DNA of 64,000 nucleotides. Source: Deltaproteobacteria bacterium (GTDB lineage: Bacteria; Myxococcota_A; Polyangia; JAAYKL01). A model generated the notes under the pieces. That model was not told the DNA's origin and searched no databases. It saw nothing but the letters and a program-made list of their open reading frames with translations. The position numbers were made by a program, and so were the translations under genes. The stretch spans positions 1 to 64,000 of the forward strand of contig JAUVDV010000003.1 in assembly GCA_030595125.1 (NCBI GenBank), given 5' to 3'. Shown in pieces: positions 4,666 to 64,000 of the stretch. How positions within the stretch are numbered: the first letter of the stretch is position 1; every line of letters begins with the position of its first letter.

Positions 4666-6267
4666 ATGAGATTGTTCAATACTGTACTGGGCCTTTCAAT
4701 CTGTTCCGCGTTCTTTCTCGTCATGTTCGGTTGCGGGATGTTCGACGGCGAAGAGGGTGCTGATTCGGGGGCGGCCACCGATTCGGATTCCGATTCGGAC
4801 GGGGACACTGACACTGATTCGGATACGGATTCGGATTCGGAAGACTACGCGACAGGCAATCTCGAATGGGCCAAAAAAATAGGGAGTGTCGAAGACGTGG
4901 AATGCAGGTCCGTAGCTGGTCTGGATGACGATTCCCTGATCCTGGTGGGAGGCTTCCAGGACACGGCAACCTTTGGCGCGGGGGAGTCGGCTGAAACAGC
5001 GTTGACGGCCGCAGGGATCTCGGACGTGTTTCTCGCCAAATTAAACTCGGACGGCACGGTGGCATGGGCCAAAAGGGCGGGGAGCCCCGAAGACGACGGC
5101 ATTGAGACGGCATACGATGTCACTCTTCTTGCGGGAGGTTCCTTTATTGCGACGGGCACGTACCAGGATACGGCCGTATTCGGTCCAGGCGAATCCAGTG
5201 AGACATTACTGAACACTCCCTCGGCAGCCGAGGAAGCGTTTGTCGCCAAGTTCAACCCGGACGGCACGGTGGCGTGGGCCAAGAGCGCCGGTGGAGCAGA
5301 CGGAGATCGCGGCATGGCTATCGATGCGCTTGCGAGCGGTTCCTTTCTGGTGACAGGCCATTTCTCGTCGAGCGCAACATGGGGAGCGGGCGAGTCCTCA
5401 GAATCTACCCTGAACGCCTCGGGGATGACCGATGTGTTTTTGGCCAGGTACAACGATGATGGAACGATTGCCTGGGCCAAACAGGCAGGAGGAACCGGAT
5501 CCGACGAGGGGCTCGATCTGGCGACGGCCACGGACGGAACAACGATACTGGTAGGTTCCTTCGAGGGTAGCGCAGTGTTCGGTTCCGGAGAGAGCGCGGA
5601 AACGAGTCTCGAAACCGCCGGGGGCTCGGACGGATTTTTCGCCAAATACAATCCCGACGGCACCATCGCATGGGCCAAGAAGATCGGCGGAATAGGGCAG
5701 GACTCGGTTGAGGGAGTAGCCCTCCTCGATGACGGGTCATTTCTGTTGGCCGGCCACCTGATCGGCTCGGTCGTTTTCGGATTGGGTGAGCCCAACGAGA
5801 CACCATCCGACGGGACGTGGGGCGTTTTCCTGGCCAAGTACGATGGGAGCGGCCAGCTCCTGTGGGCTAAGGGCATTTCAAAGGATGGCAACGGAGGAGT
5901 TGATATAGGCGGCATCGTCAAACTCCCGGACGATACCTTCCGTGTAACGGGCGGGTTCGGTGGATCCGGATCGATTATCTTCGGCAAGGGGGAGAGCGAC
6001 GAAGAATCGGTCACTACCGGAGACCAATTCCATCACGCCTATATAGCCGGCTACGATCCCAACGGAACCTTTTCATGGGTCAGGACCGCCGGCGGCAACG
6101 ACGGCCATGTGACAGGCGGACTCAATCTGACCGCGCTCCACAACGATTCGGTAGTGGCGGTCGGATTCCTGGGGGGTACGGCGATATTCGGGAGTGGTGA
6201 AGATAGCGAAACCGAGCTGACCTCCGACGGCCAGGTGGACGCATTCATCGTGAAGCTGGCTCCTTAA
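4666..6267 (+). CDS. SBBP/delta-60-type beta-propeller lipoprotein
   Basis: 533 aa. Lipoprotein signal peptide (FLVMFGCGMF) followed by an Asp/Ser/Thr linker (DSDSDSDGDTDTDSDTD). The remainder is about nine copies of a 50-60-residue unit containing 'FLAKLNSDGTVAWAK', 'GSFIATGTYQDTAVFGPGES' and variants, which is the SBBP/delta-60 repeat pattern and should form a beta-propeller on the cell surface. AAGGAGGTGA precedes the ATG with ideal spacing. Function is unknown; such proteins are abundant in Myxococcota. The UMF1-type transporter gene follows after 13 bp, but the protein types do not suggest a shared function. Confidence 0.8.
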   Translation: MRLFNTVLGLSICSAFFLVMFGCGMFDGEEGADSGAATDSDSDSDGDTDTDSDTDSDSEDYATGNLEWAKKIGSVEDVECRSVAGLDDDSLILVGGFQDTATFGAGESAETALTAAGISDVFLAKLNSDGTVAWAKRAGSPEDDGIETAYDVTLLAGGSFIATGTYQDTAVFGPGESSETLLNTPSAAEEAFVAKFNPDGTVAWAKSAGGADGDRGMAIDALASGSFLVTGHFSSSATWGAGESSESTLNASGMTDVFLARYNDDGTIAWAKQAGGTGSDEGLDLATATDGTTILVGSFEGSAVFGSGESAETSLETAGGSDGFFAKYNPDGTIAWAKKIGGIGQDSVEGVALLDDGSFLLAGHLIGSVVFGLGEPNETPSDGTWGVFLAKYDGSGQLLWAKGISKDGNGGVDIGGIVKLPDDTFRVTGGFGGSGSIIFGKGESDEESVTTGDQFHHAYIAGYDPNGTFSWVRTAGGNDGHVTGGLNLTALHNDSVVAVGFLGGTAIFGSGEDSETELTSDGQVDAFIVKLAP

Positions 6268-8034: not shown

Positions 8035-8895
8035 AGTTTCTCCTCCTACAGCGTAACAGCCGCAACTACTGTCCCCGTGTTCGTCTTCGTTATCGAGACC
8101 GAAACACTCGCATTCCCCTTCCCTGCAGTTGCCACCCTCTTTTCCCACGTCGCGACAGGCCTGATCGCACGTCAGCGGATCGCACTGCGGGTCGGTGTCC
8201 GAATCGGTGTCCGCGTCGGAGTCACTGTCGGAGTCTGTGTCCGAGTCTGTATCGGAGTCTGTGTCAGCATCCGTGGTTCCGCTGGTTTCGATGACGAGCC
8301 TCATCACCCAGTCGCCGTTTATTCCCAGGTTTCCCGACCACTGCCACTGAAAGTCGCCCCCGAAGTCCCCGTACACCAGGTTGCGTGCGTATGTGATGCC
8401 GTCGGCATCGCGAAGCGGAAAGGCGACACCGTCGGATGGGAACTCGAACGCAACGCGAATCGGACCATCATCTATTGTGATTCCCTCTGAAGAGAGATCG
8501 ACCGTGTTGATGCCGGTATTGGAGCTGAAGAGCAGCAGGCTGGTGTCCTCGTATATGGGAGCGCCGGAAGGAGCAAGCTGCGCCTCGGCGTCGTCCTCCC
8601 ATATCCGAAGAGGGAAGCTGAGTCCCGTCGCCTCGGCGGTGGGATCGCAGGACATTCCTACCGCAACAACCGGAGAGAGTATTAGCTGGACTTCGAGAAT
8701 ATCCACCGGGTAGTCCCCCGGTTGTGGAATGAAGACCGACGCGACGTATTCTCCCTCTATGAATCCGCAACTCGCCACTCCGAGCAACGGGTTGGCGAGA
8801 GTGTCGTTCTGCAGAGTGATGATGTCCCCGCGAGCCACAGTGGCCGTGAGCAAAAGAACCGCCAGCACCGTCATGGTCAGTGTTCTGATTTTCAT
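7966..8895 (-). CDS. Secreted protein with MYXO-CTERM-like sorting tail
   Basis: 309 aa. Signal peptide ends near TVARGD. The mature N-terminal domain (about residues 25-205) is beta-rich and unassigned. It is followed by a (DTDSDS)n linker, a Cys-rich EGF-like stretch (CDPLTCDQACRDVGKEGGNC...CEC) and a C-terminus with SSCGCYAVGG, a hydrophobic helix (LSGLFALLALIGAVSL) and RRR. That order (Cys motif, transmembrane helix, Arg cluster at the very end) is the MYXO-CTERM signal recognised by a myxobacterial sorting system. The start is the ATG with GAGGACGTAGGGA upstream, 28 bp after the VWA lipoprotein gene. Confidence 0.75.
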   Translation of the reverse strand: MKIRTLTMTVLAVLLLTATVARGDIITLQNDTLANPLLGVASCGFIEGEYVASVFIPQPGDYPVDILEVQLILSPVVAVGMSCDPTAEATGLSFPLRIWEDDAEAQLAPSGAPIYEDTSLLLFSSNTGINTVDLSSEGITIDDGPIRVAFEFPSDGVAFPLRDADGITYARNLVYGDFGGDFQWQWSGNLGINGDWVMRLVIETSGTTDADTDSDTDSDTDSDSDSDADTDSDTDPQCDPLTCDQACRDVGKEGGNCREGECECFGLDNEDEHGDSSCGCYAVGGETSEPLSGLFALLALIGAVSLRRR

Positions 8896-8923
8896 TTCCC
8901 TACGTCCTCTTTGGTTGTGTCGC

Positions 8924-9979
8924 CTATTCGATGATGAAATCGTCGCAGGCAACCTCAATGAGATCCATCGCGTTCTCCAGGGCCGCGACCATGTTGCCCT
9001 GCAATTGCGCCTCGCACATGTCATGCATGAGCCCGTGCTGCCCCGACGCGTTGATATGGTCATCGAGGAAAGACTCCAATCGGCTTGCCGAAATAGCTCC
9101 GTCGTCTCCGTAGTCGCAAGGAGCGCTTCCGTCAGGGGAAGCCTGTCCGGCGATCACCACTATCGCGTACTTCTCCTCGCCTCCGAAGCGGGCGTCCAAC
9201 ATTGACTTGAACGTGGTCAGATCCGTGAGGTTGTGCTCCGTGGGGTATTCGAAACAGGAGTGAGTGACGTCAGGCAGATCCCAATAATCATCGACTCTCG
9301 AGCAGTCATCCTCGTCCGTGATGAAGATGGCGACGAAGAGGGCGTCCTCGCGGAAGAAGCCGTCGTTGGGGCCGCCGGCGCCGGACTTTTCAATGGCCTT
9401 TTGCATGGCGTACAGAGGCATTTCGTAGGCAGGTCCGTAGATCCCCACCTGAGCGAGGTCCGTGAAATCCGATTCAACGGTCGATCCCGGGCCATCGATC
9501 CAGGGATCGGCGCTCCCGTCCGGGAAGAGCAGATCGCCGTCCTTGCCATCGAGCGAGATCGCTCCGGGGACGCCGGTGACGTAGTAGTGGGTGGAGATTC
9601 CCGTAGTGGTGACACCGAGGCGATAGTCCAGCTGGGTTCCGGCGACGGTCTCATATTCCTCCAGAACGGTTATGAAATCCGGGAAGGAGTCGATCAGCAT
9701 TTGTTGTTCCGATTCCATAGTGTTGGAGTCGTCGATGATGAAGAGCAGGTCGACCGCCTGACATCCCTCCGTGGAGTTGCCGGTATCCGTGTCCGAATCG
9801 GTATCGGAGTCCGTGTCGGAGTCGGTGTCCGTATCGGTATCGGTGTCCGTGTCTGTGTCCGCGTCGGAACTCGACGGATGGGTTGACGCCGACTCGCAAG
9901 AGACGCCCGCCGCGCAGGGCAGGGCGAGGGCGACAAGGAAGACCAGGAGACGAATCGATTTGGCATTGACGACGATCAT
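8924..9979 (-). CDS. VWA-like secreted/lipoprotein with Asp-rich linker
   Basis: 351 aa. Signal peptide followed by Cys (AGVSC, possible lipobox) and a pure (SDTD)n linker. The main domain starts VDLLFIIDDSNTMESEQQMLI, the degenerate MIDAS form (DxSxS as D-D-S-N-T) of the von Willebrand A domains found in myxobacterial surface proteins; EDALFVAIFITDEDDCS supplies the later MIDAS acidic region. Four or more Cys may form disulfides. The start is the ATG with AAGGAG 8 nt upstream; a GTG three codons earlier overlaps that site. First gene of a two-gene operon with the MYXO-CTERM protein. Likely surface adhesion or binding. Confidence 0.75.
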   Translation of the reverse strand: MIVVNAKSIRLLVFLVALALPCAAGVSCESASTHPSSSDADTDTDTDTDTDTDSDTDSDTDSDTDTGNSTEGCQAVDLLFIIDDSNTMESEQQMLIDSFPDFITVLEEYETVAGTQLDYRLGVTTTGISTHYYVTGVPGAISLDGKDGDLLFPDGSADPWIDGPGSTVESDFTDLAQVGIYGPAYEMPLYAMQKAIEKSGAGGPNDGFFREDALFVAIFITDEDDCSRVDDYWDLPDVTHSCFEYPTEHNLTDLTTFKSMLDARFGGEEKYAIVVIAGQASPDGSAPCDYGDDGAISASRLESFLDDHINASGQHGLMHDMCEAQLQGNMVAALENAMDLIEVACDDFIIE

Positions 9980-37499: not shown

Positions 37500-40400
37500 C
37501 TACACTGCGAAGTATCTTGCTTGCGGGTGGTGTACCAGTATCGCCGAGGTGGTAGCCTCCGGTACCATCTCCATATTCTCTGTGAGAGAAACTCCGATCC
37601 TTGAAGGATCCAGCAGATCGAAAACCAGTTGCTGGGAGTCGAGATCCGGGCACGACGAGTAGCCGAAGCCGTACCTGAGCCCCTGCCCACCGGAGGGAGA
37701 AGAACCGCCCTGGGCTCTCCCCCGGGTCAGACCGAGTTCATGTCGCATTTGTCGGCTCCAGTATTCGGCCAGAGCCTCGGCGAGTTCCATGGCAAAACCG
37801 TGGGCCATTAGGTAGTCGTGATATCTGTCCGACTCAAAAAGGTGTCTGGCACCCTCTGACAGTTCAGACCCTATAGAGGCCACGAATAGTCCTATTATAT
37901 CACCGCCGTCTTGCTGGCCTTTAAAGTAATCTGTCACGCAGAGGCCGGGGGGGTGATTTTGTCTCGGGAACCCAAAAACGACCTCCCTGTCTTCATGCTC
38001 AACGATCAGATTATCCCCTTCAGATCTGCAACTGAAATAGCCGTAAGCGACCGACGGCTTCGCCAGATTTTTCTCGCTGCATTCCTGGATCAGTCGAGCC
38101 AGGGTGGGTTCGGCCTTTTCCTTCAGCAGCGCTGCGTGCTCCTCTCGGGTTCGCCCGGTACTCGCGTACCCCCACCGGCCGCGAAAGAGTGCCTTGCGGT
38201 TCAGGAGGGAGAACAGTTTCTCCACAGGGATATCAGTCGCGTATCTGGGCCCGAGGAACGGAGCCTCCGGGACGGGATTGTGCGCAGAGATGACCGATTC
38301 TTTTCGCGCGGCCCCGCCATTGCCGGCGGTTTCGTTGTCGGTTGTCGGTTCCAGTTCTCCGCGCTCGAGATCCTGCATCGCGCTCAATCCCGCCATTGCG
38401 TCGGAACAATAGACGACCGGCGCACCGAATGACGGAACGCAATCCCTGGCCACGAACCCCCTGGTGAGGGCCGCGCCGCCGAGAAGTACGGGCATCTTGA
38501 GGCCGGCTTCCTCAAAACGGGGCAGGCTGCTTTTCATATGAAGAGCGGACTTGACGAGCAGCCCGGACAGGCCGACTGCGTGGACGTCCAGTTCCCTGGC
38601 CTTTTCTATTATGGTCTCGACGGGCACATTGGTTCCAATGTTGAAAACCCTGTAACCGTTGTTTGAAAGGATGATATCAACAAGGTTCTTGCCGATGTCG
38701 TGCACATCGCCGGCGACAGTTGCCAGGAGGATCCTGGTTCCTTCATCGATCTGCGATTGCTCCATGTGGGGTTGCAGGAACTTCACGCTCGCCTTCATCA
38801 CCTCCGCAGAGCTGAGCACGAACGGCAGCAACATCTCTCCCTTTTTGAAGAGAATGCCCACCTTTCGCATGGCCGGGACGAGGATCCGGTTGATTATCTC
38901 CATCGGGGCGTAACGTTCCATCAATATGGGCAGGAGGTCCTCGATGTCCGACCTGTCACCGTCCATCAAACGGGATTGAAGCATCTCTTCCGGGAGGAAT
39001 TTCCCTTTTGCGTCGGTCCCCGCGTCAGCGCTTGTCTTGCGCTCCTCAAAATGGGCAAGGTAGGCAGAAAGCGGTGAATCTTCGCCCTTTGTGCGTCTGT
39101 CGAGCATGAGATCCATGCAGATCCGGATGTCCTCCTTCGAGATATTGGAGAGGGGGAGGATCTTGCCGGGGTCCACAATTGCCGCGTCCAGACCCGCGCG
39201 TATGGCCTCGTGGAGAAAGACCGAGTTGAGAAGTTTCCTCGAGGAAACGGGCAGGCCGAAGGAGATATTGCTCACCCCCAGGCTCGTGAAAACACCGGGC
39301 AGGGAATCCTTGATGAGCCCGATGGCCTCGAGGGTTTCTATCGCCGATCTTTCCAGTTTTGAATCCCCCGAGCCGATGGTGAAGGTGAGGGGATCGAAGA
39401 AGAGGTCACACGGACGCAATCCGATTTCGTCAACAGCCAGGGAGTGGATGTCGCGTGCGACCGAGAGCTTGTCTTTGGCGGTTGCGGCCATCCCGTCAGG
39501 ACCGATGGTCAGCGCTATGACCGCCGCACCGAATCTCTTTACCTGCTTCAGAACGCGCCGCGCCGTGGCGCCCCCGTCTTCGAGGTTGATGGAATTGACC
39601 AGGCATCTGCCGGGTATGGTCTCGAGGGCCGCTTCGATTGTCTCGGGGCGAGTGGAGTCGATGACCAGGGGGAGCTTCACGGTTGTGTTGAGGATTTTCA
39701 CCAGGCTGGTGATGTCTTTTACTTCATCGCGACCGGCGAAAGCAGTGCACACGTCTAGCAGGTGAGCTCCCGCAGCCTCCTGATTCGAGCCGATACGCGC
39801 CGCGCCCTCGAAATCCTCGGCCAGCAGCAGCTTCTTGAATTTGCGAGAACCGTGGGTGTTCATGCGCTCGCCGATAATCAGCGGGGGGATTTCCTGTTTT
39901 GCTTCAACGGATTCGTAGAGGCTGGAAAGGGAGGGCGGGAACGCCGGTTCGCGGCTGGCGGGGGCCAGGCCTTTCAACTCCTTTGCGAGCGCGCGTATGT
40001 GCTCGGGATTTGTACCGCAACAGCCACCGACAATTGAGACGCCGTCTTCCACGACGAAGCTCTTCAATCGTCGGGCGAACTCCGATGGATCGAGAGGGTA
40101 GAAAGTCTGGTCGTCCCTGATCTCCGGCATGCCCGCGTTGGGAATCACCGAAATGCGGCCGCGCCACGTGCGGCTCAGGTACTTGACCTGTCCGATCATA
40201 CGCTCGGGACCGGTCGCGCAGTTGATGCCGATGGAAAACAGCGGGAACGGCTCGGCGGTGGTCATGACCGCGTCGATGGATGTGCCCACGAGCATGGTTC
40301 CGGTGGTTTCGATGGTGACCGAGAGCATCACCGGGATGTTGGATCCCAGCTTTTCGAGCGAATCGAAAGCCGCGACAAGGGCAGACTTGATTTGCAGGGG

Positions 40401-40862
40401 ATCCTGGCAGGTTTCCACTATGAGCGCGTCCACGCCCGCCTCGACGAGTGCCGATGCCTGCTCCATGTACGCGATGTGAAGCTCCCTCGCCGGGATCTGG
40501 CCCAGAGAGGGGAGTCTGCTCCCCGGTCCCATAGAGCCGGCCACATACTTGCCGGGGCGTCCGCCGACGGCGTCCAGAGCGTTCTTCACCGCAGCGGCGT
40601 TGATCTCCACCACCCGGTCTTCGAGTCCGTACTCGGCCAGAACCAGACGCGTTCCTCCGAAAGTATTGGTTTCGATGACATCCGCGCCCGCGTCGAGGAA
40701 AGACGTGTGCAGAGCAACCACCGCCGACGGCGCGCTGAGATTGAGATACTCGTTGCATCCCTCGAACCGATCACCCCACGCAGACGAGGGTAGATCCTGC
40801 GCCGCGAGGTTGGACCCGCACGCCCCGTCGAAAATCAGCAGTTCTTTATCTCGAATGCTCAC
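37500..40862 (-). CDS. metH: Cobalamin-dependent methionine synthase
   Basis: 1120 aa, cytoplasmic, transfers the methyl group of 5-methyltetrahydrofolate through cobalamin to homocysteine. Domains in order: homocysteine-binding (about 5-305; INCATGPE and GGCCGTNPEH supply zinc Cys), pterin-binding (about 325-590; IIGERMNTHGSRKFKK), B12 cap (about 635-710), B12-binding (about 715-860; GDVHDIGKN, base-off His) and SAM-dependent activation domain (about 930-1115; RYGFGYSSCPD and VPEATTSAILVHHP). Slightly shorter than E. coli MetH (1227 aa). No cobalamin riboswitch is seen upstream. A B12 uptake locus lies at the right end of the window. Confidence 0.93.
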   Translation of the reverse strand: MSIRDKELLIFDGACGSNLAAQDLPSSAWGDRFEGCNEYLNLSAPSAVVALHTSFLDAGADVIETNTFGGTRLVLAEYGLEDRVVEINAAAVKNALDAVGGRPGKYVAGSMGPGSRLPSLGQIPARELHIAYMEQASALVEAGVDALIVETCQDPLQIKSALVAAFDSLEKLGSNIPVMLSVTIETTGTMLVGTSIDAVMTTAEPFPLFSIGINCATGPERMIGQVKYLSRTWRGRISVIPNAGMPEIRDDQTFYPLDPSEFARRLKSFVVEDGVSIVGGCCGTNPEHIRALAKELKGLAPASREPAFPPSLSSLYESVEAKQEIPPLIIGERMNTHGSRKFKKLLLAEDFEGAARIGSNQEAAGAHLLDVCTAFAGRDEVKDITSLVKILNTTVKLPLVIDSTRPETIEAALETIPGRCLVNSINLEDGGATARRVLKQVKRFGAAVIALTIGPDGMAATAKDKLSVARDIHSLAVDEIGLRPCDLFFDPLTFTIGSGDSKLERSAIETLEAIGLIKDSLPGVFTSLGVSNISFGLPVSSRKLLNSVFLHEAIRAGLDAAIVDPGKILPLSNISKEDIRICMDLMLDRRTKGEDSPLSAYLAHFEERKTSADAGTDAKGKFLPEEMLQSRLMDGDRSDIEDLLPILMERYAPMEIINRILVPAMRKVGILFKKGEMLLPFVLSSAEVMKASVKFLQPHMEQSQIDEGTRILLATVAGDVHDIGKNLVDIILSNNGYRVFNIGTNVPVETIIEKARELDVHAVGLSGLLVKSALHMKSSLPRFEEAGLKMPVLLGGAALTRGFVARDCVPSFGAPVVYCSDAMAGLSAMQDLERGELEPTTDNETAGNGGAARKESVISAHNPVPEAPFLGPRYATDIPVEKLFSLLNRKALFRGRWGYASTGRTREEHAALLKEKAEPTLARLIQECSEKNLAKPSVAYGYFSCRSEGDNLIVEHEDREVVFGFPRQNHPPGLCVTDYFKGQQDGGDIIGLFVASIGSELSEGARHLFESDRYHDYLMAHGFAMELAEALAEYWSRQMRHELGLTRGRAQGGSSPSGGQGLRYGFGYSSCPDLDSQQLVFDLLDPSRIGVSLTENMEMVPEATTSAILVHHPQARYFAV

Positions 40863-53066: not shown

Positions 53067-54605
53067 CTATTTCTCCGTTTTTCTGACACCTGTTTTTATG
53101 GGGTCTCCCTCATATCCCAGCGCCTTCCAATCCATGCGACCTTTCTTGAAGTGACAGTTGCCACATTTCAACGCCCCGGACTTTGGAGCGACCTGGTGGT
53201 GTATCGGCCAGTACATCTCCGTCTCGATCCAGCCCAGCGAACCCGAGTACTCCAACCCGGCCGCCTTCATGCCCAACACGGCCGACTGCTCCCAGTCGAA
53301 GGTCTTCCAGAAGCCGTCTTCCCCGAAGAGTTTCGGCACGATCAGTTTCTTGAGCTTGACGTCATAAGGCTGCTTGCCGCGCATGATCTTGAAGGGCATG
53401 ATCCTGGATCCTGGATCAGCGATGGCACCCAGTTGCTTGTTGAGCACGAGAACGTCTCCGGTCAATTCGATCTTCTTGTTCTTTGTGTAGACCTCCTGCG
53501 TTCCATTGGACCATGCATACTCGGGGACGAGCTCCTTGCCCCATTTGAAGGTTCCTTTTTTCTTTGACCATAGCGCCATGCCGAACTTGTCCTTGCCGCT
53601 CTTCAGATCCGTTCCTGCGGTGGACCAATCCCACCATGTCTTGGTCGGAATTTCTTTTGCGTAGAGCGGGATATGACAGGTTTCACAGCCCAACGCCGCC
53701 AGGTGCAGGTTGATCTTCTTGTTCTTGTGCTTCACGTCCTCGTGGCAATCCAGACAGGTGAAGTGGGCGTCGGCTTCGGACATCGGCGCTGTGGCGTAGA
53801 GAGCGCCTCTGATTTCGTGTTTTTCAGCAGTATGACAGTCGGCACAGGTGAAATTCTCGCCACCCATATGCACATCCAGATCTCGCGAGGCCTTCAGCAA
53901 GCTGGAGTCCAGATCGCCGTGCTTTACGCCGTCCCCGCCGCCGCCGTTGAAGTGACACGTGCCACAATTGCGACTGGTTGCCTTGCCGACGTTCTGCGCG
54001 ATCTTTGCGTAGTCCGGAGGAAGGAATTTATTGCCCATAAAAACCTTCTCTTCTTCGGTGGGATACCCGGCGCCGGTGGGGAACTTCTTATAGGTCCCGG
54101 TCTGGTCGTGGCAGACGAGACAGTCGATATTCTCCTTGTTCTTGAAATCAAACTCGTTGTCTTTCCAACCATAACCGATGTGACAGCTGGTACAGCGGGG
54201 CCAGTTGCCATCGAGGGCGATGCAGTAGTTGTTCAGCACATTTGTTTTTCCGTACTGAACGGTTTCGCCATTGGGCAGCTTCTTTTCCGTGAACCAGCGC
54301 CAGTGCCGCGTCATGAGGATGTCATCGCCGACGTCTTCGTGACACTCGAGGCAGGACTTTGTCACATCATGGGGAGTCTCGAACGGACCGGTATTGTCCA
54401 TGTGTTCGTCGATGACCTTCAACTTGGGGGCCACCACTACCGGCGCCTCTTCTCGAGGTTGCTCTTTTTCCGGTTGTTGTTCCGTGAGATCTTTCTTTGA
54501 CGGTGCTTGTTCCGTGGCATCGTCACCGCCACAAGAGGCCATCAGCGCCGCAATAAAAACCACGGCTGTGAGTTCGAAGCACAATATTGACTCTCGGTTT
54601 TTCAT
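53067..54605 (-). CDS. Octaheme c-type cytochrome, tetrathionate-reductase-like lipoprotein
   Basis: 512 aa. Lipobox MASC (Cys25) and a Glu/Gln/Pro linker. Exactly eight CXXCH heme sites are visible: CLECH (from residue 85), CTSCH, CLVCH, CGTCH, CADCH, CLDCH, CETCH and CGNCH. Spacing and the C-terminal part (HHQVAPKSGALKCGNCHFKKGRMDWKALGY) fit the octaheme tetrathionate reductase (OTR) family, which reduces tetrathionate, nitrite or hydroxylamine in vitro. The start was set at the ATG behind AAAGGATGAG. An ArsR-type regulator gene lies 30 bp upstream in the same direction. Needs cytochrome c maturation, for which the window holds ccmE. Confidence 0.88.
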   Translation of the reverse strand: MKNRESILCFELTAVVFIAALMASCGGDDATEQAPSKKDLTEQQPEKEQPREEAPVVVAPKLKVIDEHMDNTGPFETPHDVTKSCLECHEDVGDDILMTRHWRWFTEKKLPNGETVQYGKTNVLNNYCIALDGNWPRCTSCHIGYGWKDNEFDFKNKENIDCLVCHDQTGTYKKFPTGAGYPTEEEKVFMGNKFLPPDYAKIAQNVGKATSRNCGTCHFNGGGGDGVKHGDLDSSLLKASRDLDVHMGGENFTCADCHTAEKHEIRGALYATAPMSEADAHFTCLDCHEDVKHKNKKINLHLAALGCETCHIPLYAKEIPTKTWWDWSTAGTDLKSGKDKFGMALWSKKKGTFKWGKELVPEYAWSNGTQEVYTKNKKIELTGDVLVLNKQLGAIADPGSRIMPFKIMRGKQPYDVKLKKLIVPKLFGEDGFWKTFDWEQSAVLGMKAAGLEYSGSLGWIETEMYWPIHHQVAPKSGALKCGNCHFKKGRMDWKALGYEGDPIKTGVRKTEK

Positions 54606-54635
54606 GTCTCTCATCCTTTTGTCTTTAAAAAACAT

Positions 54636-54998
54636 CTACACGATTTCGTCGTCGGCTATTTCACCTGCTGCGATTCCTCTATCTCGCAGATCCTCAAGCA
54701 GCACCTTCCTGATCTCGAGACAAGCGGCGTAGAGCTTGGGTTGTACGAGGCTATAGAAGACTGTTTGGCCATCTTTTCGCCCATGCACGATATTCTTACC
54801 TCGCAGTAGATTCAGGTGCTGGCTGATGTTGGCCATCGGTACGTCGATCGCCGCTGCGAGCTGTCCCACGCTCTGCTCCCCATCGGCAAGAAGCGCGATG
54901 ATCATGAGTCTCTTTTCGTTGGCGATTGCCTTGCAGAACTCTGCGTGGAGCTTGAATATCTCTGGGTTTTGCATATTCGGCATCTGGTATTTGCGCAT
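54636..54998 (-). CDS. ArsR-family winged-helix regulator
   Basis: About 120 aa (start uncertain: three in-frame ATGs within 25 nt and no clear ribosome site). FCKAIANEKRLMIIALLADGEQSVGQLAAAIDVPMANISQHLNLLRGKNIVHGRKDGQTVFYSL is summarised here: 'AiAnekRLmIiaLL', then 'sVgqLA..idvpmanISQHLnlLR' and 'GRkdGqtvfYsL', the ArsR helix-turn-helix and wing. Two Cys (FCKAI and AACLEI) are available for metal, redox or sulfur sensing, but they are not at the classic CxC ArsR position. It is placed to control itself and the octaheme cytochrome. Confidence 0.85.
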   Translation of the reverse strand: MRKYQMPNMQNPEIFKLHAEFCKAIANEKRLMIIALLADGEQSVGQLAAAIDVPMANISQHLNLLRGKNIVHGRKDGQTVFYSLVQPKLYAACLEIRKVLLEDLRDRGIAAGEIADDEIV

Positions 54999-55013
54999 AA
55001 TCGAAAATGCGCA
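54992..55013 (-). promoter_or_regulatory. Candidate operator at the ArsR-type gene
   Basis: TGCGCAT and ATGCGCA arms separated by 8 bp, with a third ATGCGC half-site just beyond (55015-55020). It overlaps the first possible start codon of the regulator gene, a usual place for autoregulation. No promoter boxes were identified with confidence. Confidence 0.45.
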
Positions 55014-55070
55014 CATGCGCGGAGTATGCGTACACAAACCCGGCCAGTCAAGCCCTGAAACCGGCGCATG

Positions 55071-55210: not shown

Positions 55211-56476
55211 TCACGGAACACAATCGCTCTCCCACCAGGTGATGTCGTTGTCATACCAAGCCGCGCCGAGCACGTCCATGTCGCCGTCTCCGTCGACGTC
55301 TGCGGCGTATACCGAAATGGCGCCGGCGAATGTCCCATCCACGGTGTGCTCGGTCCAGGCGGTGCCGTCTCCCGCAGTGTTCTCCCACCAGGTGATGTCA
55401 TTGGCCAATTCTGCCGCGCCGAGCACGTCCATATCGCCGTCTCCATCAACGTCCGCCGCGTATACCGACCTGGTCTTGTCGAATTCCCCATCCACCGTGT
55501 GCTCAGTCCAGGCGGTCCCGTCGCCGGCTGTGTTTTCCCACCAGGCGATGTCGTCTGCATCAGCCGCCGCCCCGAGCACGTCCATGTCGCCGTCTCCGTC
55601 GACGTCTGCAGCATATACCGAAATGGCGCCGGTGAATTCCCCATCCACCGTGTGCTCGGTCCAAACGGTACCGTCGCCTGCGGTGTTCTCCCACCAGCTG
55701 ATGTCATCGGCGTGTAATGCCGCGCCGAGCACATCCATGTCGCCGTCTCCGTCAACGTCTGCAGCGTATACCGACCTGGCACCATTGAATTCCCCATCCA
55801 CCGTGTGCTCAGTCCAGGCGGTCCCGTCGCCGGCTGTGTTCTCCCACCAGGTGATGTCATCGGCAAGACTCGCCGCGCCGAGCACATCCATATCGCCGTC
55901 TCCGTCAACGTCCGCTGCGTATACTGAAAGGGCATTATCGAATGACCCATCCACCGTGTGCTCGATCCAGGCGGTTCCGTTGCCCGCGGTGTTCTCCCAC
56001 CATGCAATGATCTCGTCTACTTCACTCGCGCCGAGTACGTCTATATCGCCGTCTCCGTCAACGTCCGCTGCGTATACCCACCAGGCGCCGGCGAATTCTC
56101 CATCCACCGTGTGCTCGGTCCAGACTGACCCGTCGCCTGCGGTGTTCTCCCACCAGGCGATAGAATCGGCGTTGTATGCCGCGCCGAGCACGTCCATGTC
56201 ACCGTCTCCATCAACGTCTGCGGCGTATACCGACTTGGCGCCGGCGAATGCCCCGTCTACCGTGTGCTCAGTCCAGGTCGGATCACAGTAGGTGTCTGTT
56301 TCTGTGTCCGTATCGGTGTCGGTATCGGTGTCAGTGTCGCTATCCGTATCGGTGTCCGTGTCGATGTCCACATCCGTATCCGTGTCGGTCCCGGAGTCGG
56401 GGGTGATCTTCCTGTCGTCGTTGCCGCAGGCGGCGAGCCACACGACAACCACGACCAGTTTTAGTATTGTCTTCAC
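55211..56476 (-). CDS. FG-GAP/VCBS-repeat lipoprotein with seven 51-residue units
   Basis: 421 aa. Lipobox LAAC, then a (DTDTDVDI)-type acidic linker of about 40 residues. The remainder is seven near-identical units of 51 residues (153 bp), each 'VDGxFxxxxSVYAADVDGDG', 'DMDVLGAAxxADxIxWWENT', 'AGDGTxWTEHT'. DVDGDGDMD is a calcium-binding FG-GAP/VCBS motif. Seven units are the right number for a closed beta-propeller on the surface. DNA identity between units is high, so unit number may change by recombination. The gene is flanked by orphan tails A and B. Confidence 0.85.
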   Translation of the reverse strand: MKTILKLVVVVVWLAACGNDDRKITPDSGTDTDTDVDIDTDTDTDSDTDTDTDTDTDTETDTYCDPTWTEHTVDGAFAGAKSVYAADVDGDGDMDVLGAAYNADSIAWWENTAGDGSVWTEHTVDGEFAGAWWVYAADVDGDGDIDVLGASEVDEIIAWWENTAGNGTAWIEHTVDGSFDNALSVYAADVDGDGDMDVLGAASLADDITWWENTAGDGTAWTEHTVDGEFNGARSVYAADVDGDGDMDVLGAALHADDISWWENTAGDGTVWTEHTVDGEFTGAISVYAADVDGDGDMDVLGAAADADDIAWWENTAGDGTAWTEHTVDGEFDKTRSVYAADVDGDGDMDVLGAAELANDITWWENTAGDGTAWTEHTVDGTFAGAISVYAADVDGDGDMDVLGAAWYDNDITWWESDCVP

Positions 56477-56563
56477 TTACTTCCCCCGCTTTTGGTTTCG
56501 TTCCTGAATCTCTTGAGTGCGAGGCTCAATGATACCAGAAAGCTTGGCGGGGGGCTGAGTAGT

Positions 56564-56629
56564 TTCCAACTAACCGTCAGGCAAATAGCGCGCAAGCACC
56601 CCGTCTATGTCCGCGCCGTTGGAGATGGG
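56564..56629 (-). pseudogene. Orphan 3' fragment of the VFEN-motif lipoprotein gene, copy B
   Basis: Encodes KPISNGADIDGVLARYLPDG and TAG on the minus strand, matching the last 20 residues of the intact gene at 58992-59846 and also about 6 bp past its stop codon. The homology ends at GGAGATGGG, just before the 3' end of the flotillin gene. Confidence 0.8.
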
Positions 56630-58900: not shown

Positions 58901-58991
58901 TATTGAGCCTCCCCCTGTATCCGCTCCCGCGGGGATCAGTTCTTTGTGCGATTCGAAAGGACAACAAGGCGCAAGTCTAGCAGGTATCCAA

Positions 58992-59846
58992 CTAACCGTC
59001 AGACAAATAGCGCGCCAGCACGCCGTCGATGTCCGCGCCGTTGGAGATGGGGTCATGCACGTAGTTGGCGCCCGTATCCGGATTTGTCATGGACGGGGCA
59101 GTCACAAGCTTGATGTACGCGAAGCCCCCGGTCTTGATTGCCTGGGCGTCGCCCCCGTCATCCGGTAGATCGTCCAGATCGAAATGATCTCCTCCGGCGG
59201 CGGAGAAATCGAATGGATCTACGGGGTTGGTGTCGGCATTGTAGTAAACGGGATTGACGCCGGCGAACCCCAGCCACTTGTCCGGGAGCTGGGAGTAGGT
59301 TGTTTCGTCCGGGTTTGTGTAGTCGTGGGGGAGGGGCACCCATATGGTTCCGTCGAGGGAGAGAAAGATCACTACATGGTCCATGAAACAGGCGGGGCCT
59401 GCGCCGATGAGGAAGGCGTTCTCGAACACCGCGAAGTCCGTCCCGGGACCGTTTTCTACCAGCCTGCCGGACCAGCCCAGGACAATGTAGTTGTCGATGT
59501 CTTCGACGTATCCAAGCGAAAACACATCAACCGTGTTTCCCGTCGACGAGCCGCTTCCGTGAACTCCGTTGGTGGCATTACTCGAGTCCCCCAATCCTTC
59601 GCCTGTATGTCCAGGTGCGTCCACCACCTCGTCCGCAACGTTTTGCGAATAGTCCCCCGCGTCCTCTTCCGTGCCGGCGTCTGATTCTGTATCCGTGTCG
59701 CTATCTGTGTCTCCGTCCGTGTCCGAGTCAGCGTCTGAACCGGCATCCGCATCGGTGGATGCGTCAGGACCTCCGTCGCCCTCCTCGGTACACGCACAAG
59801 CGAGCACAAGCGCAATCGCGATGATCAGTTTAAAAACAGCATTCAT
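58992..59846 (-). CDS. VFEN-motif surface lipoprotein (LIC_13355-like)
   Basis: 284 aa. Signal peptide with ACAC lipobox, then an Asp/Ser/Thr linker. The mature domain has VDVFSLGYVEDIDNYIVLGW, ENGPGTDFAVFENAFLIG, VVIFLSLDGTIWVPLP and GDHFDLDDL, the pattern of LIC_13355-like 'cell surface' proteins ('vlSLG.gG.i.l.f...i.dg.G.DF.VFEN.F...'), probably a ligand-binding beta-sandwich. The start is 2 bp after the stop of the beta-propeller lipoprotein, with AAGGGG 8 nt before the ATG. Third gene of the cobalamin-riboswitch operon. Its 3' end has been copied twice (55071-55159, 56564-56629). Confidence 0.75.
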   Translation of the reverse strand: MNAVFKLIIAIALVLACACTEEGDGGPDASTDADAGSDADSDTDGDTDSDTDTESDAGTEEDAGDYSQNVADEVVDAPGHTGEGLGDSSNATNGVHGSGSSTGNTVDVFSLGYVEDIDNYIVLGWSGRLVENGPGTDFAVFENAFLIGAGPACFMDHVVIFLSLDGTIWVPLPHDYTNPDETTYSQLPDKWLGFAGVNPVYYNADTNPVDPFDFSAAGGDHFDLDDLPDDGGDAQAIKTGGFAYIKLVTAPSMTNPDTGANYVHDPISNGADIDGVLARYLSDG

Positions 59847-59848
59847 GG

Positions 59849-60985
59849 TTAGACCCCTTCCCCATCTTGATGCACGAAGCAAATCATGAAGGGCGGCAGC
59901 CCCACGTCCAGGGGCTCCTCGGTAATCTCTGAATCGTTTTCCGTGTCGAAGATCCTCAACCCCGGCAACTGAGGCTTGCGGTCGCAAACCCATAGCTGGC
60001 TTCTATCCGGGGAAATCTCCAGAAAACCTATTGTCCAATCGTCGCGGACGATAAGGTCCTCCAGTTTCTTTCCGGTGGAAGGATTGAAGGAGACCAGATG
60101 GGTGGCCGCGCCCGAGGCTGCAGGAACGCCAATGACCGCATAGCCCTTGGTCTCGCTGACGATAACCACGTCCGAGAGATCCCCCCCGACCTCCTGTTCC
60201 GTAATGACAAAACCGCTCAATGTCAGATCGTGGGGATCCAGGTATTCGATACCGCCGTCCAGGGTGTCGAAGGCTCCAGCTTGCGCGATCACTATTTTAT
60301 CAAGGACGGAGTTGTAGCGCAGCTTGCCGTAGGTATTGGACCCGGAGAGGATGATCTCCTCCTCGATCACTCCGGTGGCCGCGTCAATAACAGCGATTGA
60401 ACTCGGGCCTGTAGGGGTAAAATTGACGAGCTTCTGCAATACAACGTAGATCTTGCCTTGCAGATAAAGAACCCAGGCCGCTTCCGGGTTTCCGTCGTCA
60501 TCGGCCATGGAACTCAGATCGACAGTTCCGATTTGCGTGCCACTGGTGGGGTGCACGATGAGCAACTCAGGTTGATCGAAGAGAGCAATAAATGCCCGTC
60601 CCGGGGAGGCCACAGCGATATCCTGCGGGTTGCTGCCGGCTCCTGCCGAGTATTCCGAGGACACCGTCCAGCCGTCATGAGGATCGATGACGTCCACCGC
60701 ATCGGCTCCATATCTCGCGATAATAAAGGGGGTCGACGTTTCTTCATCGAAGCGGCAGACCGAGTCCTCGTGAACAGTCTCGATGCTTTCGGAGATGGAA
60801 AGGTCGGAGAGATCGACCAGAGAATAGGAGCCGGCCTCATAATCGGTGGTCACCACCAGGGCATACGTTCCCCCATCGACCATGTTCGCTATGGGGGGCT
60901 TGTCCGAAGAGGGATCGCAACCTGTCCACAACACCGGCAACACGACCCAAAGGAATAGAAACAGAGAACCTCGTGTCGCCTTCAT
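59849..60985 (-). CDS. YncE/BtuG-like beta-propeller lipoprotein
   Basis: 378 aa. Lipobox WTGC (Cys23). The mature protein consists of YVTN-type blades: YALVVTTDYEAGSYSLVDL, TPFIIARYGADAVDVIDP, NPQDIAVASPGRAFIALFDQ, SSIAVIDAATGVIEEEIIL, KIVIAQAGAFDTLDGGIEYL, GYAVIGVPAASGAATHLVSF, QLWVCDRKPQLPGLRIFD, about seven in all. Position directly after the TonB receptor (TGATG overlap) in a riboswitch-controlled operon matches Bacteroides BtuG, a seven-bladed surface propeller that captures cobalamin for BtuB. Homology to BtuG is inferred from fold and context, not shown. Confidence 0.72.
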   Translation of the reverse strand: MKATRGSLFLFLWVVLPVLWTGCDPSSDKPPIANMVDGGTYALVVTTDYEAGSYSLVDLSDLSISESIETVHEDSVCRFDEETSTPFIIARYGADAVDVIDPHDGWTVSSEYSAGAGSNPQDIAVASPGRAFIALFDQPELLIVHPTSGTQIGTVDLSSMADDDGNPEAAWVLYLQGKIYVVLQKLVNFTPTGPSSIAVIDAATGVIEEEIILSGSNTYGKLRYNSVLDKIVIAQAGAFDTLDGGIEYLDPHDLTLSGFVITEQEVGGDLSDVVIVSETKGYAVIGVPAASGAATHLVSFNPSTGKKLEDLIVRDDWTIGFLEISPDRSQLWVCDRKPQLPGLRIFDTENDSEITEEPLDVGLPPFMICFVHQDGEGV

Positions 60986-63015
60986 CAGGTCCTCCAGTTA
61001 ATGGTTGCCAGGATGGTTCTGCCCGGCAACGGAAATGCTTCGAAGTCTCGCACCGGGCGCAGACGACCCTCTTCGTCCTTGACCGTGATGGTATCCAGGA
61101 GGTTCTTGACCTCAACAGTCAGGCTAAGCTTCGCGGGGAGGTGTTCGGCTCGGGCACCGAGGCCCAGAAACAGGCGGGCCAGGGTATCTTCCTGCATGTT
61201 CGCCTGGTCCAGGTAGTTGCTGCCCGCGTAGTTCACATCGAACCAGAGGGAGCCGGCCCATTTCTCCCAGGGATGCCTTATCTCGATTTTTCCATAGGCT
61301 TCGTGGGCGGGGCGGCCCGGCAACCGCTTGTCGTAGTAGAATGGACGGTCGGATCGATTGACCCCATGAAGGAATGTGTAGTTTGCCTCGAAGAAAACGA
61401 CATCCGCCCAGCCGGTGCCCATGGAGGTCTCTACTCCCAGGATTTCTGCCTTGCTCACGTTTTCGGGCCGGACTGTATTCTGGGAGTTCTGCACATAGAC
61501 GATCAGGTCCTCCACCCTGGAGCCGAAGCCCGCGCATTCGAACCTGCCCATCGAGAGGAAACCCACGTCCGTGACCATGTACGTCAAGCCAAGATCCGCG
61601 TTTAGAGAGAGTTCGGGTTTCAGATCCGGGTTGCCGATGACCGCGCCTCGATCACCAAAAAGCTCCGCCAGATCAGGAGGGCGTACAAAGCGACCTGTGT
61701 TTGCGCGAAAGAACAAGCCCGGAACAATTTCGTACCGCAACCCGAGGGAGGGTTGGATGTAGAAATCATCGAAGAAGACTCCGTGGTGATGCTCAAGCCT
61801 CAGGGCGGGCACCAGGAGGGCATCGTCGGACGGAGTCAGAGAGTATTCCAGGGCCAGAGAGGAGATCACCCTGCTTGCGGGATCAGGTTCGATTCCTGCG
61901 AGCAGTTCCACGGTAGTGAAACGTTCGTATCTGCTCCTCGCGCCGACCGAGATCGACTGATGATCGCCGGCGTGGATTCCCAGAAGGGCTCCACCTCCCA
62001 CGGAATCGGCCCTGGAGACGGTGCGCTGATGACCAACGCCGATCTCGTTGTCCAGGTCCGAGAAGTCTTCGTGCATCACCATGTACCTGGCGTCCAGGAT
62101 GACCTCCACGTTTTCGTCGACCGCCGTTTCGAGGCGCCCACTCAGCGAGTCGCGCAGTGTACGCAAGGAGACAGTCTGGGTGGGAATGCTGGACACACCG
62201 GGAATTCCCTGTCGCTTCAGCATCAGGTCGTTTGCCAGTGTCCAGTGCCGGCCGTCCACATTGCCGTCGATCTTCACGAGGGCCCCGTAGGAAACGTGCT
62301 GGTTGTTCTGCCGACGCTGGATCGCGTCATCATCTTCGTTGAGTAATGTTCCGTTTCGATTGAGATACTCGAAATCGCCCTGGGAGCCGGAAGCGGAAAG
62401 GATCGCCAGCGTGCGCACGTCATCTATTCGATCGCCCCGGAGCGCCAGCAGTCGGGCGGTGTTCCAGGATCCATAGCTCGCACTGATCTCGGTGATCGGC
62501 TCGTCGAACGCCCTGGACTTGAGTGAAATTGCCCCTCCTATCCCGGCGGTTCCAAGGGATACAGGTGTATATCCTCGATAGATCTCGATGCGATCGAGGC
62601 TGTCCAGGGTGAGGTCTCCCAGGTTGACAGAGGCGAACCCACCGGTGTTGAGCAACACACCGTCCATGTAAACCGGGACCTGGCCCGGCGTTGAGCCCCG
62701 AATGCTCGCCGCGCCGTAAGAACCGAGGCCGCCTGTGCGGCGAACCTGGACGCCGACCGCCTGGGAAACAACCTCCGAGACCGATGTCATGCCCCTGGAC
62801 TCCTCATTTACATCCAGGGTCCTGGCAAACCCGGTGACATTGTCGCTGGGCTTTACCTCGTACCCGTGAACGACGGTTTCGAACACGGGCGCTTCTTCTT
62901 CATCGAGGAGGAGATCTTCCGTCTGGGGGTCGACTTCATCGGCATTCGAAGCGCAGGGGCACCAGAGGCATAGCCCCAGAACCGTGCAAATCGAAGTCGA
63001 AATAAAACGCAGCAC
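60985..63015 (-). CDS. btuB: TonB-dependent receptor, probable cobalamin transporter
   Basis: 676 aa, GTG start. Signal peptide, then a TonB-box-like FETVVHG, a plug domain (VSEVVSQAVGVQVRRTGGLG, SIRGSTPGQVPVYMDGVLLN, SLDRIEIYRGYTPVSLG, GIGGAISLKSR) and a 22-strand barrel (RFVRPPDLAELFGDRGAVIGNPDLKPE is summarised as the usual 'RpP...elfgd.g...gNpdLkPE' signature). The last residue region GRTILATINWR ends the barrel. The upstream cobalamin riboswitch makes B12 or a related corrinoid the likely substrate. Two lipoprotein genes follow in the same transcript. Confidence 0.85.
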   Translation of the reverse strand: MLRFISTSICTVLGLCLWCPCASNADEVDPQTEDLLLDEEEAPVFETVVHGYEVKPSDNVTGFARTLDVNEESRGMTSVSEVVSQAVGVQVRRTGGLGSYGAASIRGSTPGQVPVYMDGVLLNTGGFASVNLGDLTLDSLDRIEIYRGYTPVSLGTAGIGGAISLKSRAFDEPITEISASYGSWNTARLLALRGDRIDDVRTLAILSASGSQGDFEYLNRNGTLLNEDDDAIQRRQNNQHVSYGALVKIDGNVDGRHWTLANDLMLKRQGIPGVSSIPTQTVSLRTLRDSLSGRLETAVDENVEVILDARYMVMHEDFSDLDNEIGVGHQRTVSRADSVGGGALLGIHAGDHQSISVGARSRYERFTTVELLAGIEPDPASRVISSLALEYSLTPSDDALLVPALRLEHHHGVFFDDFYIQPSLGLRYEIVPGLFFRANTGRFVRPPDLAELFGDRGAVIGNPDLKPELSLNADLGLTYMVTDVGFLSMGRFECAGFGSRVEDLIVYVQNSQNTVRPENVSKAEILGVETSMGTGWADVVFFEANYTFLHGVNRSDRPFYYDKRLPGRPAHEAYGKIEIRHPWEKWAGSLWFDVNYAGSNYLDQANMQEDTLARLFLGLGARAEHLPAKLSLTVEVKNLLDTITVKDEEGRLRPVRDFEAFPLPGRTILATINWRT

Positions 63016-63052
63016 CTCGAAACCTACCCTTTCCGCGAAGGTGGCTTCGGAT

Positions 63053-63279
63053 GGTCGGCATTTGTGCGCGACCGGGCCTGGTCAGGTTTTCTGACTCGCG
63101 AGGTGGCTTACAGCTCTCACCCGTCGTCACCTTCCCATTCATGCAGTGAACAGTGGTGTTGTCGACGAGGGTGTTCCTCGCTTACAGCGGCGGGACCGTG
63201 TCGGATTTTCACCGACTTCCCTGTGGTCCAGGCCCATATCCGAATGTTGTCAAATGGCGACCGGCATCGTGTACCGACC
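63053..63279 (-). ncRNA. Cobalamin riboswitch
   Basis: On the minus strand the conserved parts appear in order: ACAGGGAAGTCGGTGAAAAT followed by CCGACACGGTCCCGCCGCTG-TAA; CCACTG; GGGAAGG; and the B12-box end GAGTCAGAAAACCTGACC. An outer stem GGTCGG (63279-63274) with CCGACC (63058-63053) may close P1. It lies directly before the TonB receptor gene; a short CGAAG-CCAC-CTTCG hairpin just ahead of the start suggests control of translation initiation. It should lower expression when cobalamin is plentiful. Confidence 0.93.
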
Positions 63280-63375
63280 GTTCAATTGAGGCCAAGATAA
63301 ACTGGGCCAGGGAATATAACAAGGGAAAGGTCGTATTGACATCGACGGGGCTTGCGGAATATCTACGCAACAGGC

Positions 63376-64000
63376 ATGTGCTCACCCAATCACACTACAA
63401 TCGGACATTTTGTTGCGCTCGTCCTCGTCCTCGTGCTCGGCTGTGCGACAGGACCAGAGGATGACGGCAGGCGCGAGCAGGTTGAACCTCCGTCCGACAG
63501 GACAACCTCACACATCGAGATCACCGACACATTCGGTCACGTGGTGAAGCTGGAAAAGCCAGCCGAGAAGATCGCGTCTCTCGCGCCCGGTTTCACGGAG
63601 ATCCTTTTTGCCATCGGATGCAATGATCGAATAAGGGTTCGCGACAACTGGTCGGATTTCCCCGCTGACGCTGCTGCGTTACCGGCCGTGGACGGCCTCG
63701 AACCGTCTCCCGCTATCATCGCGGGTTACGATCCCGATCTCGTGTTGTTGTGCTTCAGGGACGCGCGAAGTCTGAAATCATTCGATCAGATCGGCCTGCC
63801 GGTGGCAATGATGGAACCAAAGACCTTTGCACACGTGGCCGAGGATATTGCGAAGTTGGGAGTGTTGTGCGGACGGGAGGAGCGGGCTCGCAAAGTCGCC
63901 GCGAAAATGCTGCGTGTAAAGGATGAGATTTCACTTGCGCTCAAGAAAACGGACTATCGTCCGGCGGTGTACGTGGAACTCGATGGGGCAGATCCCGCGC
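63376..64000 (+). CDS. btuF: BtuF-like periplasmic corrinoid/heme-type binding lipoprotein (cut by window edge)
   Basis: At least 208 codons, 3' end outside the window. ATG followed by a signal peptide with lipobox LVLGC, a short acidic linker and the cluster A-2/type III binding-protein fold: IEITDTFGHVVKLEKPAEKI, ASLAPGFTEILFAIGCNDRI, GLEPSPAIIAGYDPDLVLL, KSFDQIGLPVAMMEPKTFAHV. BtuF and related heme or siderophore binders share this pattern; the divergent cobalamin riboswitch favours BtuF. About 95 bp separate it from the riboswitch 5' end. BtuC and BtuD genes would be expected just beyond the window. Confidence 0.8.
   Translation, partial: MCSPNHTTIGHFVALVLVLVLGCATGPEDDGRREQVEPPSDRTTSHIEITDTFGHVVKLEKPAEKIASLAPGFTEILFAIGCNDRIRVRDNWSDFPADAAALPAVDGLEPSPAIIAGYDPDLVLLCFRDARSLKSFDQIGLPVAMMEPKTFAHVAEDIAKLGVLCGREERARKVAAKMLRVKDEISLALKKTDYRPAVYVELDGADPA

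Follow-up and report, generated by a model that had tools for sequence, protein, structure and literature searches.

Capture of vitamin B12 at the cell surface by the lipoproteins BtuG and BtuH has hitherto been treated as a trait of Bacteroidetes, and a 2018 paper among the reference work on BtuB-BtuG-BtuH of Bacteroides thetaiotaomicron (PMC6143338, PMC8941943, PMC10404256) calls BtuG exclusive to that group. Does a system of this kind also operate in another phylum? The question is raised by one end of a 64,000-nucleotide stretch, here called the window, from a Deltaproteobacteria bacterium placed in Myxococcota_A (assembly GCA_030595125.1, contig JAUVDV010000003.1, positions 1 to 64,000, forward strand), where a cobalamin riboswitch is followed on the minus strand by genes for a TonB-dependent receptor, a seven-blade propeller lipoprotein and a second lipoprotein with the motif DFAVFENAF (general form DFxVFENxF), below called VFEN. 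We consider it highly probable that this operon provides cobalamin-repressed surface capture of corrinoids, feeding the BtuB-like receptor and BtuFCD. A first-pass annotation, made from the letters alone, had proposed such a BtuG/BtuH-like set outside Bacteroidetes, and the proposal is supported by the rank of BtuG in fold searches, by btuCD genes beyond the window and by a survey of riboswitch-linked VFEN genes.

The riboswitch match (Table 1) covers positions 1-189 of the Rfam model and passes the gathering threshold of 31.5; our own covariance model (R1) scores it at 98.6 bits, and a scan of the whole window with Rfam gave no match other than RF00174. The receptor start codon follows the aptamer at a distance of 48 bases, the receptor and propeller genes overlap by 1 base, and only 2 bases separate the propeller and VFEN genes. 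Thus a terminator, which the first-pass annotation had named as a possible objection, cannot fit at either junction, and the leading riboswitch, the tight coupling and the diverging btuF-like gene that it described all agree with the coordinates. Folding of the expression platform revealed neither a clear terminator nor a single helix sequestering the ribosome-binding site. Beyond position 64000, where btuCD was to be looked for, the btuF-like gene is followed by genes for a FecCD permease and an ABC (ATP-binding cassette) ATPase, and another genome of the genus (L025) preserves the entire layout, divergent btuFCD included. A plug-and-barrel receptor is therefore found together with B12 uptake genes under a cobalamin riboswitch, the context by which BtuB is recognised, and the propeller lipoprotein gene lies next to it as btuG does next to btuB. 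The receptor carries a candidate TonB box (FETVVHG), and its closest solved structures by sequence are those of Escherichia coli BtuB (expect value, E, 4e-16).

The identity of the VFEN lipoprotein is central to the question. Its listed open reading frame (ORF), 58992-59993, was rejected as over-extended and the lipoprotein start (MNAVFKLIIAIALVLACAC) at 59846 was used; the long starts of both this protein (P0001) and P0005, a lipoprotein discussed below, were dropped for their lipoprotein signal starts. VFEN matches the NCBIfam family NF033170 (LIC_13355 family) at 153.7 bits against a cut-off of 120, and its core was modelled by AlphaFold2 with a predicted local distance difference test (pLDDT) value of 95. 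In Foldseek the sole PDB match with E < 1e-3 was 8blw chain B (E 2.2e-4); this chain is B. thetaiotaomicron BtuG1, a lipoprotein that includes a BtuH domain (PMC10404256). Because the template-modelling score (TM) was low (0.43), and because the Foldseek output came without alignment ranges and hence left unspecified which part of 8blw chain B was aligned, the relation to BtuH was tested by sequence. From Bacteroidales proteins found beside DUF5074 propellers we took one (L203) whose matches, at 1.4e-67 to 8blw chain B (residues 390-661) and at 4.7e-37 to BtuH2 (7biz), identify it as a BtuH. When a profile of this BtuH and its relatives was run against every ORF of 100 loci, all eight matches were VFEN proteins (E 2.2e-4 to 0.04). 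Moreover, hhalign of 57 VFEN against 9 BtuH sequences gave 94% with E 1.2e-7 (1.5e-8 in global mode), compared with 0.1-0.6% for the propeller and P0005-family controls. The aligned core sets DFxVFENxF against DFxVxGNAF of BtuH. In BtuH2, Asn399 touches the phosphate of B12 and Phe401 its lower ligand (PMC8941943); with a numbering offset of 100, which was cross-checked by the correct placing of Gln333 and His476, they are chain residues 299 and 301 and coincide with the Asn and Phe of the motif, conserved in the VFEN alignment as N78 (57/57) and F80 (55/57). Judged by profile alignment and predicted fold, VFEN is thus a remote homologue of the C-terminal B12-binding domain of BtuH, and the earlier view that the second lipoprotein belongs to a different family did not hold. 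That VFEN is unrelated to BtuH, as empty Pfam and PDB sequence searches had suggested, was overturned by the profile and fold results; a kinship with DUF4465/BtuJ was rejected, since neither the DUF4465 Pfam model nor solved DUF4465 members matched P0001 or its profile.

For the propeller lipoprotein, which is acidic, the AlphaFold2 model (pLDDT 93.6) retrieved BtuG chains at Foldseek ranks 1-10 and 12-17, that is, as 16 of the 17 best matches, with TM values of 0.69-0.74 to BtuG1, BtuG2 and BtuG3 and 12-14% identity over the structural alignment. The structural relation to BtuG that had been predicted for it is thus supported. A Pfam search placed it in no family above cut-off, DUF5074 included, and a propeller profile built without Bacteroidota members matched BtuG at 8e-9.

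A scan of species genomes yielded 80 VFEN loci, in Myxococcota, Leptospiraceae, Planctomycetota, Bacteroidota, Acidobacteriota, a Sumerlaeota, a Thermoplasmatota metagenome-assembled genome (MAG) and others. Model R1 was run on the loci themselves, as contig-number mapping of the whole-genome riboswitch matches was unreliable. Over the 1.02 Mb of these loci it detected 55 cobalamin riboswitches, about 200-fold more than the 0.28 expected from a background of 58 in about 209.5 Mb (38 whole genomes, sizes summed). A riboswitch lies upstream on the VFEN strand in 51 of the 80 loci; 28 loci have none, 11 of which offer less than 3 kb of upstream DNA. Hence the riboswitch-led operons with VFEN that the first-pass annotation asked to be surveyed occur across phyla. 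Behind the riboswitch the order is receptor, propeller, VFEN in L087, L141, L138 and L149, VFEN, receptor, propeller in L084 and L123, and P0005-like gene, VFEN in L074, L076, L080 and L083; the Crocinitomicaceae locus L138 mirrors the window with btuFCD diverging. VFEN and propeller are fused in L029, L033 and L034, and a Bacteroidales ORF behind a cobalamin riboswitch (L146:4012-5904, plus strand) joins a VFEN domain to a BtuJ-type DUF4465 domain, a family whose members bind B12 experimentally (PMC13398666). Among the matches listed by a literature search for BtuG or BtuH outside Bacteroidetes, only the DUF4465 paper was found. In Sorangium cellulosum (L096) two cobalamin riboswitches (5179-5317 and 8859-8997), 3.5 kb apart, flank the VFEN gene, and btuFCD-like genes are near.

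Was the set acquired from Bacteroidota? In a midpoint-rooted tree of 84 VFEN domains the window protein falls together with those of its genus mate and of a Myxococcota MAG, every Leptospirales sequence belongs to a single clade within the same 34-row group, and the Bacteroidota proteins form a separate clade together with one member from the window's own family. A recent transfer of the window set from Bacteroidota is therefore unsupported by the tree, and the picture of a single odd, laterally acquired set gives way to that of a widespread system whose window copy sits with Myxococcota and Leptospirales; the direction of transfer is not proven, because the tree is midpoint-rooted. The family member in question (L043, genome G010) has a receptor-propeller-VFEN locus whose VFEN clusters with Bacteroidota and is a candidate for cross-phylum transfer. 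In L085 the contig with the VFEN gene was assigned by binning to a Thermoplasmatota archaeon; its VFEN clusters with those of Planctomycetota, and hence mis-binning or transfer is possible.

How might the parts work together? When corrinoid is scarce, the riboswitch would permit synthesis of the receptor and both lipoproteins. We infer that both are exposed at the surface and bind corrinoid, with the propeller acting as a BtuG-type lid and capture protein on the receptor. VFEN would assist in capture as a BtuH-type accessory protein, using the Asn and Phe of its motif to bind the corrinoid on the nucleotide-loop side, and may then hand the corrinoid over to the propeller-receptor pair, from where the receptor would import it using TonB energy. 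The divergently encoded BtuF and BtuCD could carry it across the inner membrane to the enzymes that use it, for instance MetH, whose gene, outside the operon, is intact; MetH is likely to be a consumer of the imported corrinoid. The genome's B12 need was assessed from two marker families only, CbiC and MetH, and the presence of MetH with no match to CbiC in the genome is consistent with a B12 user that scavenges.

A number of results weigh against this picture. CbiC is a single marker and the genome is 95%-complete. For VFEN, apart from the low TM value given above, the core aligned by hhalign is 56 columns long, and the BtuH2 corrin-ring contacts His476, Tyr510, Trp511 and Trp577 were not traceable in the alignment, where these residues and Gln333 fall in regions without confident pairing. 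Such unmapped contacts would suit a VFEN protein that serves the B12 uptake system without binding corrinoid, as a scaffold, vesicle-release or surface-anchoring lipoprotein similar to BtuL; BtuL and BtuK2 (B. thetaiotaomicron BtuL) are indeed lipoproteins of riboswitch-controlled operons that were reported not to bind cobalamin (PMC12751083). The distant relationship of VFEN to BtuH's binding domain and the conservation of the two nucleotide-loop contacts argue in the other direction, and we therefore regard a non-binding VFEN as unlikely, though the most serious competitor. For the propeller, the Foldseek margin to 1l0q, an archaeal S-layer protein, is small, the Bacteroidota-free profile scores 1l0q better (1.6e-14) than BtuG, and the seven-blade YVTN propeller is a common fold. 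The receptor misses the cut-offs of the BtuB equivalog models, with 100.3 of the required 599.7 bits for TIGR01779 (E 9.9e-29) and 63.3 of 836 bits for PRK10641, and it scores best with MxcH, a model of myxochelin siderophore receptors (8.7e-41). The MxcH score, together with the sharing of the propeller fold by ferrichrome-binding XusB in Foldseek, could indicate that receptor and lipoproteins import another metal chelate, siderophore- or heme-like, and that the riboswitch exerts cobalt- or corrinoid-linked control of something else. We hold this to be improbable in view of the adjoining btuFCD, the cobalamin riboswitches upstream in dozens of loci, the resemblance to BtuG and BtuH, the fusion of VFEN with DUF4465 and a Leptospirales locus (L192) in which cobT and cobS stand ahead of a P0005-like/VFEN pair. 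Capture of corrinoid thus remains the preferred function.

P0005-like genes extend the argument to a further lipoprotein family. In the window genome P0005 follows the only other cobalamin riboswitch, and its family is probably part of the same system; relatives of P0005 directly precede VFEN genes in many loci and have two cysteines and a GCxGFxW-like end in common. VFEN is carried by 26 of the 30 genomes in the order to which the Leptospiraceae MAGs belong. Of the 19 loci examined from this order, 16 have a P0005-like gene directly before VFEN and 14 have a same-strand riboswitch match a short way upstream (R1 at E <= 0.1, some of them weak), 4 of which also exceed Rfam gathering scores, one as AdoCbl-II. 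Similarity of the P0005 family to NF047669 (LIC13354 family) is weak (14/15 at E <= 0.1; 7/19, best 4.9e-10), with bit scores of 17.6 and 30.6 far under the cut-off of 130, and P0005 itself has no NF047669 match at E <= 0.01. For pathogenic Leptospira the link to B12 was taken from papers: LIC13354 and LIC13355 rise together in host chambers, 3.77- and 3.72-fold (PMC3953431), and L. borgpetersenii has its LIC_13355 gene two tags away from cobT (PMC8055020). Binding to laminin, plasminogen and endothelial cells has been reported for recombinant LIC_13355 (PMC11891782), but that the family consists primarily of host adhesins and lies near B12 genes by chance is very improbable, given that these data come from protein refolded from an insoluble form (PMC11891782), that the family is riboswitch-linked and spans Myxococcota, Planctomycetota, Bacteroidota and an archaeal MAG, and that it is present in nearly all genomes of the order just described. 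Whether, instead, LIC13354 and LIC13355 are a corrinoid capture pair and not primarily adhesins, with LIC_13355/VFEN representing the BtuH domain in its ancient, multi-phylum form and the LIC13354-like domain, which has two invariant cysteines but resembles nothing of known fold or function, adding one more class of lipoprotein for corrinoid capture, seems to us evenly balanced.

These observations suggest that Myxococcota, spirochaetes, planctomycetes and others rely on the same capture logic, carried out by remote homologues that can still be recognised. The curated but uncharacterised family LIC_13355 gains a testable function, and a surface lipoprotein of Leptospira that has been presented as an adhesin receives an alternative reading. 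The latter is of importance since leptospires are reported to require B12 as an essential nutrient (PMC3953431).

Table 1. Coordinates of the riboswitches and genes discussed (window positions unless a contig or locus is named)
Feature	Position	Strand	Evidence or remarks
Cobalamin riboswitch aptamer, RF00174	63064..63246	-	Rfam 80.9 bits, E 2.4e-18
TonB-dependent outer-membrane receptor, BtuB-like, 676 aa, GTG start	60985..63015	-	Pfam plug 1.4e-12, barrel 1.4e-31
Seven-blade beta-propeller lipoprotein, BtuG-like, 378 aa, Cys23	59849..60985	-	AlphaFold + Foldseek
VFEN lipoprotein, LIC_13355 family, 284 aa, Asp-Thr-rich linker 24-65, core about residues 66-284	58992..59846	-	NF033170 + AlphaFold/Foldseek + hhalign
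btuF-like binding protein gene	63352..64000, start approximate; ends 64347 on contig C198	+	Peripla_BP_2 6.4e-29
btuC-like FecCD permease gene	ends 65360, contig C198, outside window		FecCD 4.5e-77
btuD-like ABC ATPase gene	65357-66094, contig C198, outside window		ABC_tran 4.9e-31
metH, B12-dependent methionine synthase, 1120 aa, open frame	37500..40862	-	Met_synt_B12 8.4e-32
Second cobalamin riboswitch	C2:31750-31940 = L004:9750-9940		precedes P0005
P0005, single lipoprotein	L004:10082-10690	+	(TD)n Asp-Thr linker, compact domain with two invariant cysteines

Downstream of the operon, a 68-base direct repeat (93% identical) links window positions 56562-56629 and 58984-59051, the former duplicating the VFEN gene's 3' end 2.4 kb downstream; the two copies enclose flotillin-like and NfeD-like genes. 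VFEN of the genus mate (L025) is directly followed by other sequence, which resembles the multihaem cytochrome gene of the window; the latter (53067-54635, minus strand) encodes a lipoprotein with many CxxCH motifs and adjoins an ArsR-like regulator gene (54636-55037). Between them and the repeat, 55211-56476 (minus strand) encodes a lipoprotein with an Asp-Thr linker and about seven DxDGDGDxDVLGA repeats of FG-GAP/VCBS-like type.

Compared with known systems, the operon is closest to BtuB-BtuG-BtuH, with which it has in common the cobalamin riboswitch, a TonB receptor adjoining a propeller lipoprotein, an accessory lipoprotein (B12-binding in Bacteroides) and BtuFCD, and in both systems the propeller can be fused to the second domain, as BtuG1 (BtuGH) in Bacteroides and in the three VFEN-propeller fusions here. 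It differs in its occurrence in other phyla, in the low identity of its propeller, and in that VFEN is shorter than BtuH and lacks PKD domains. VFEN falls within the family cut-off of LIC_13355 (NF033170), whose Leptospira member is published as a laminin/plasminogen adhesin and is otherwise of unknown function (PMC11891782), whereas the context here is corrinoid uptake. LIC13354 (NF047669) precedes LIC13355 in tag order as P0005-family genes precede VFEN, although the match is weak. Like the BtuJ/DUF4465 augmented jelly-roll B12-binding proteins (PMC12751083, PMC13398666), VFEN is exported, and in several phyla its gene neighbours those of TonB receptors and propellers within loci for cobalamin uptake; unlike them, it has no sequence match to solved DUF4465 proteins, and the two domains nevertheless meet in one polypeptide in L146.

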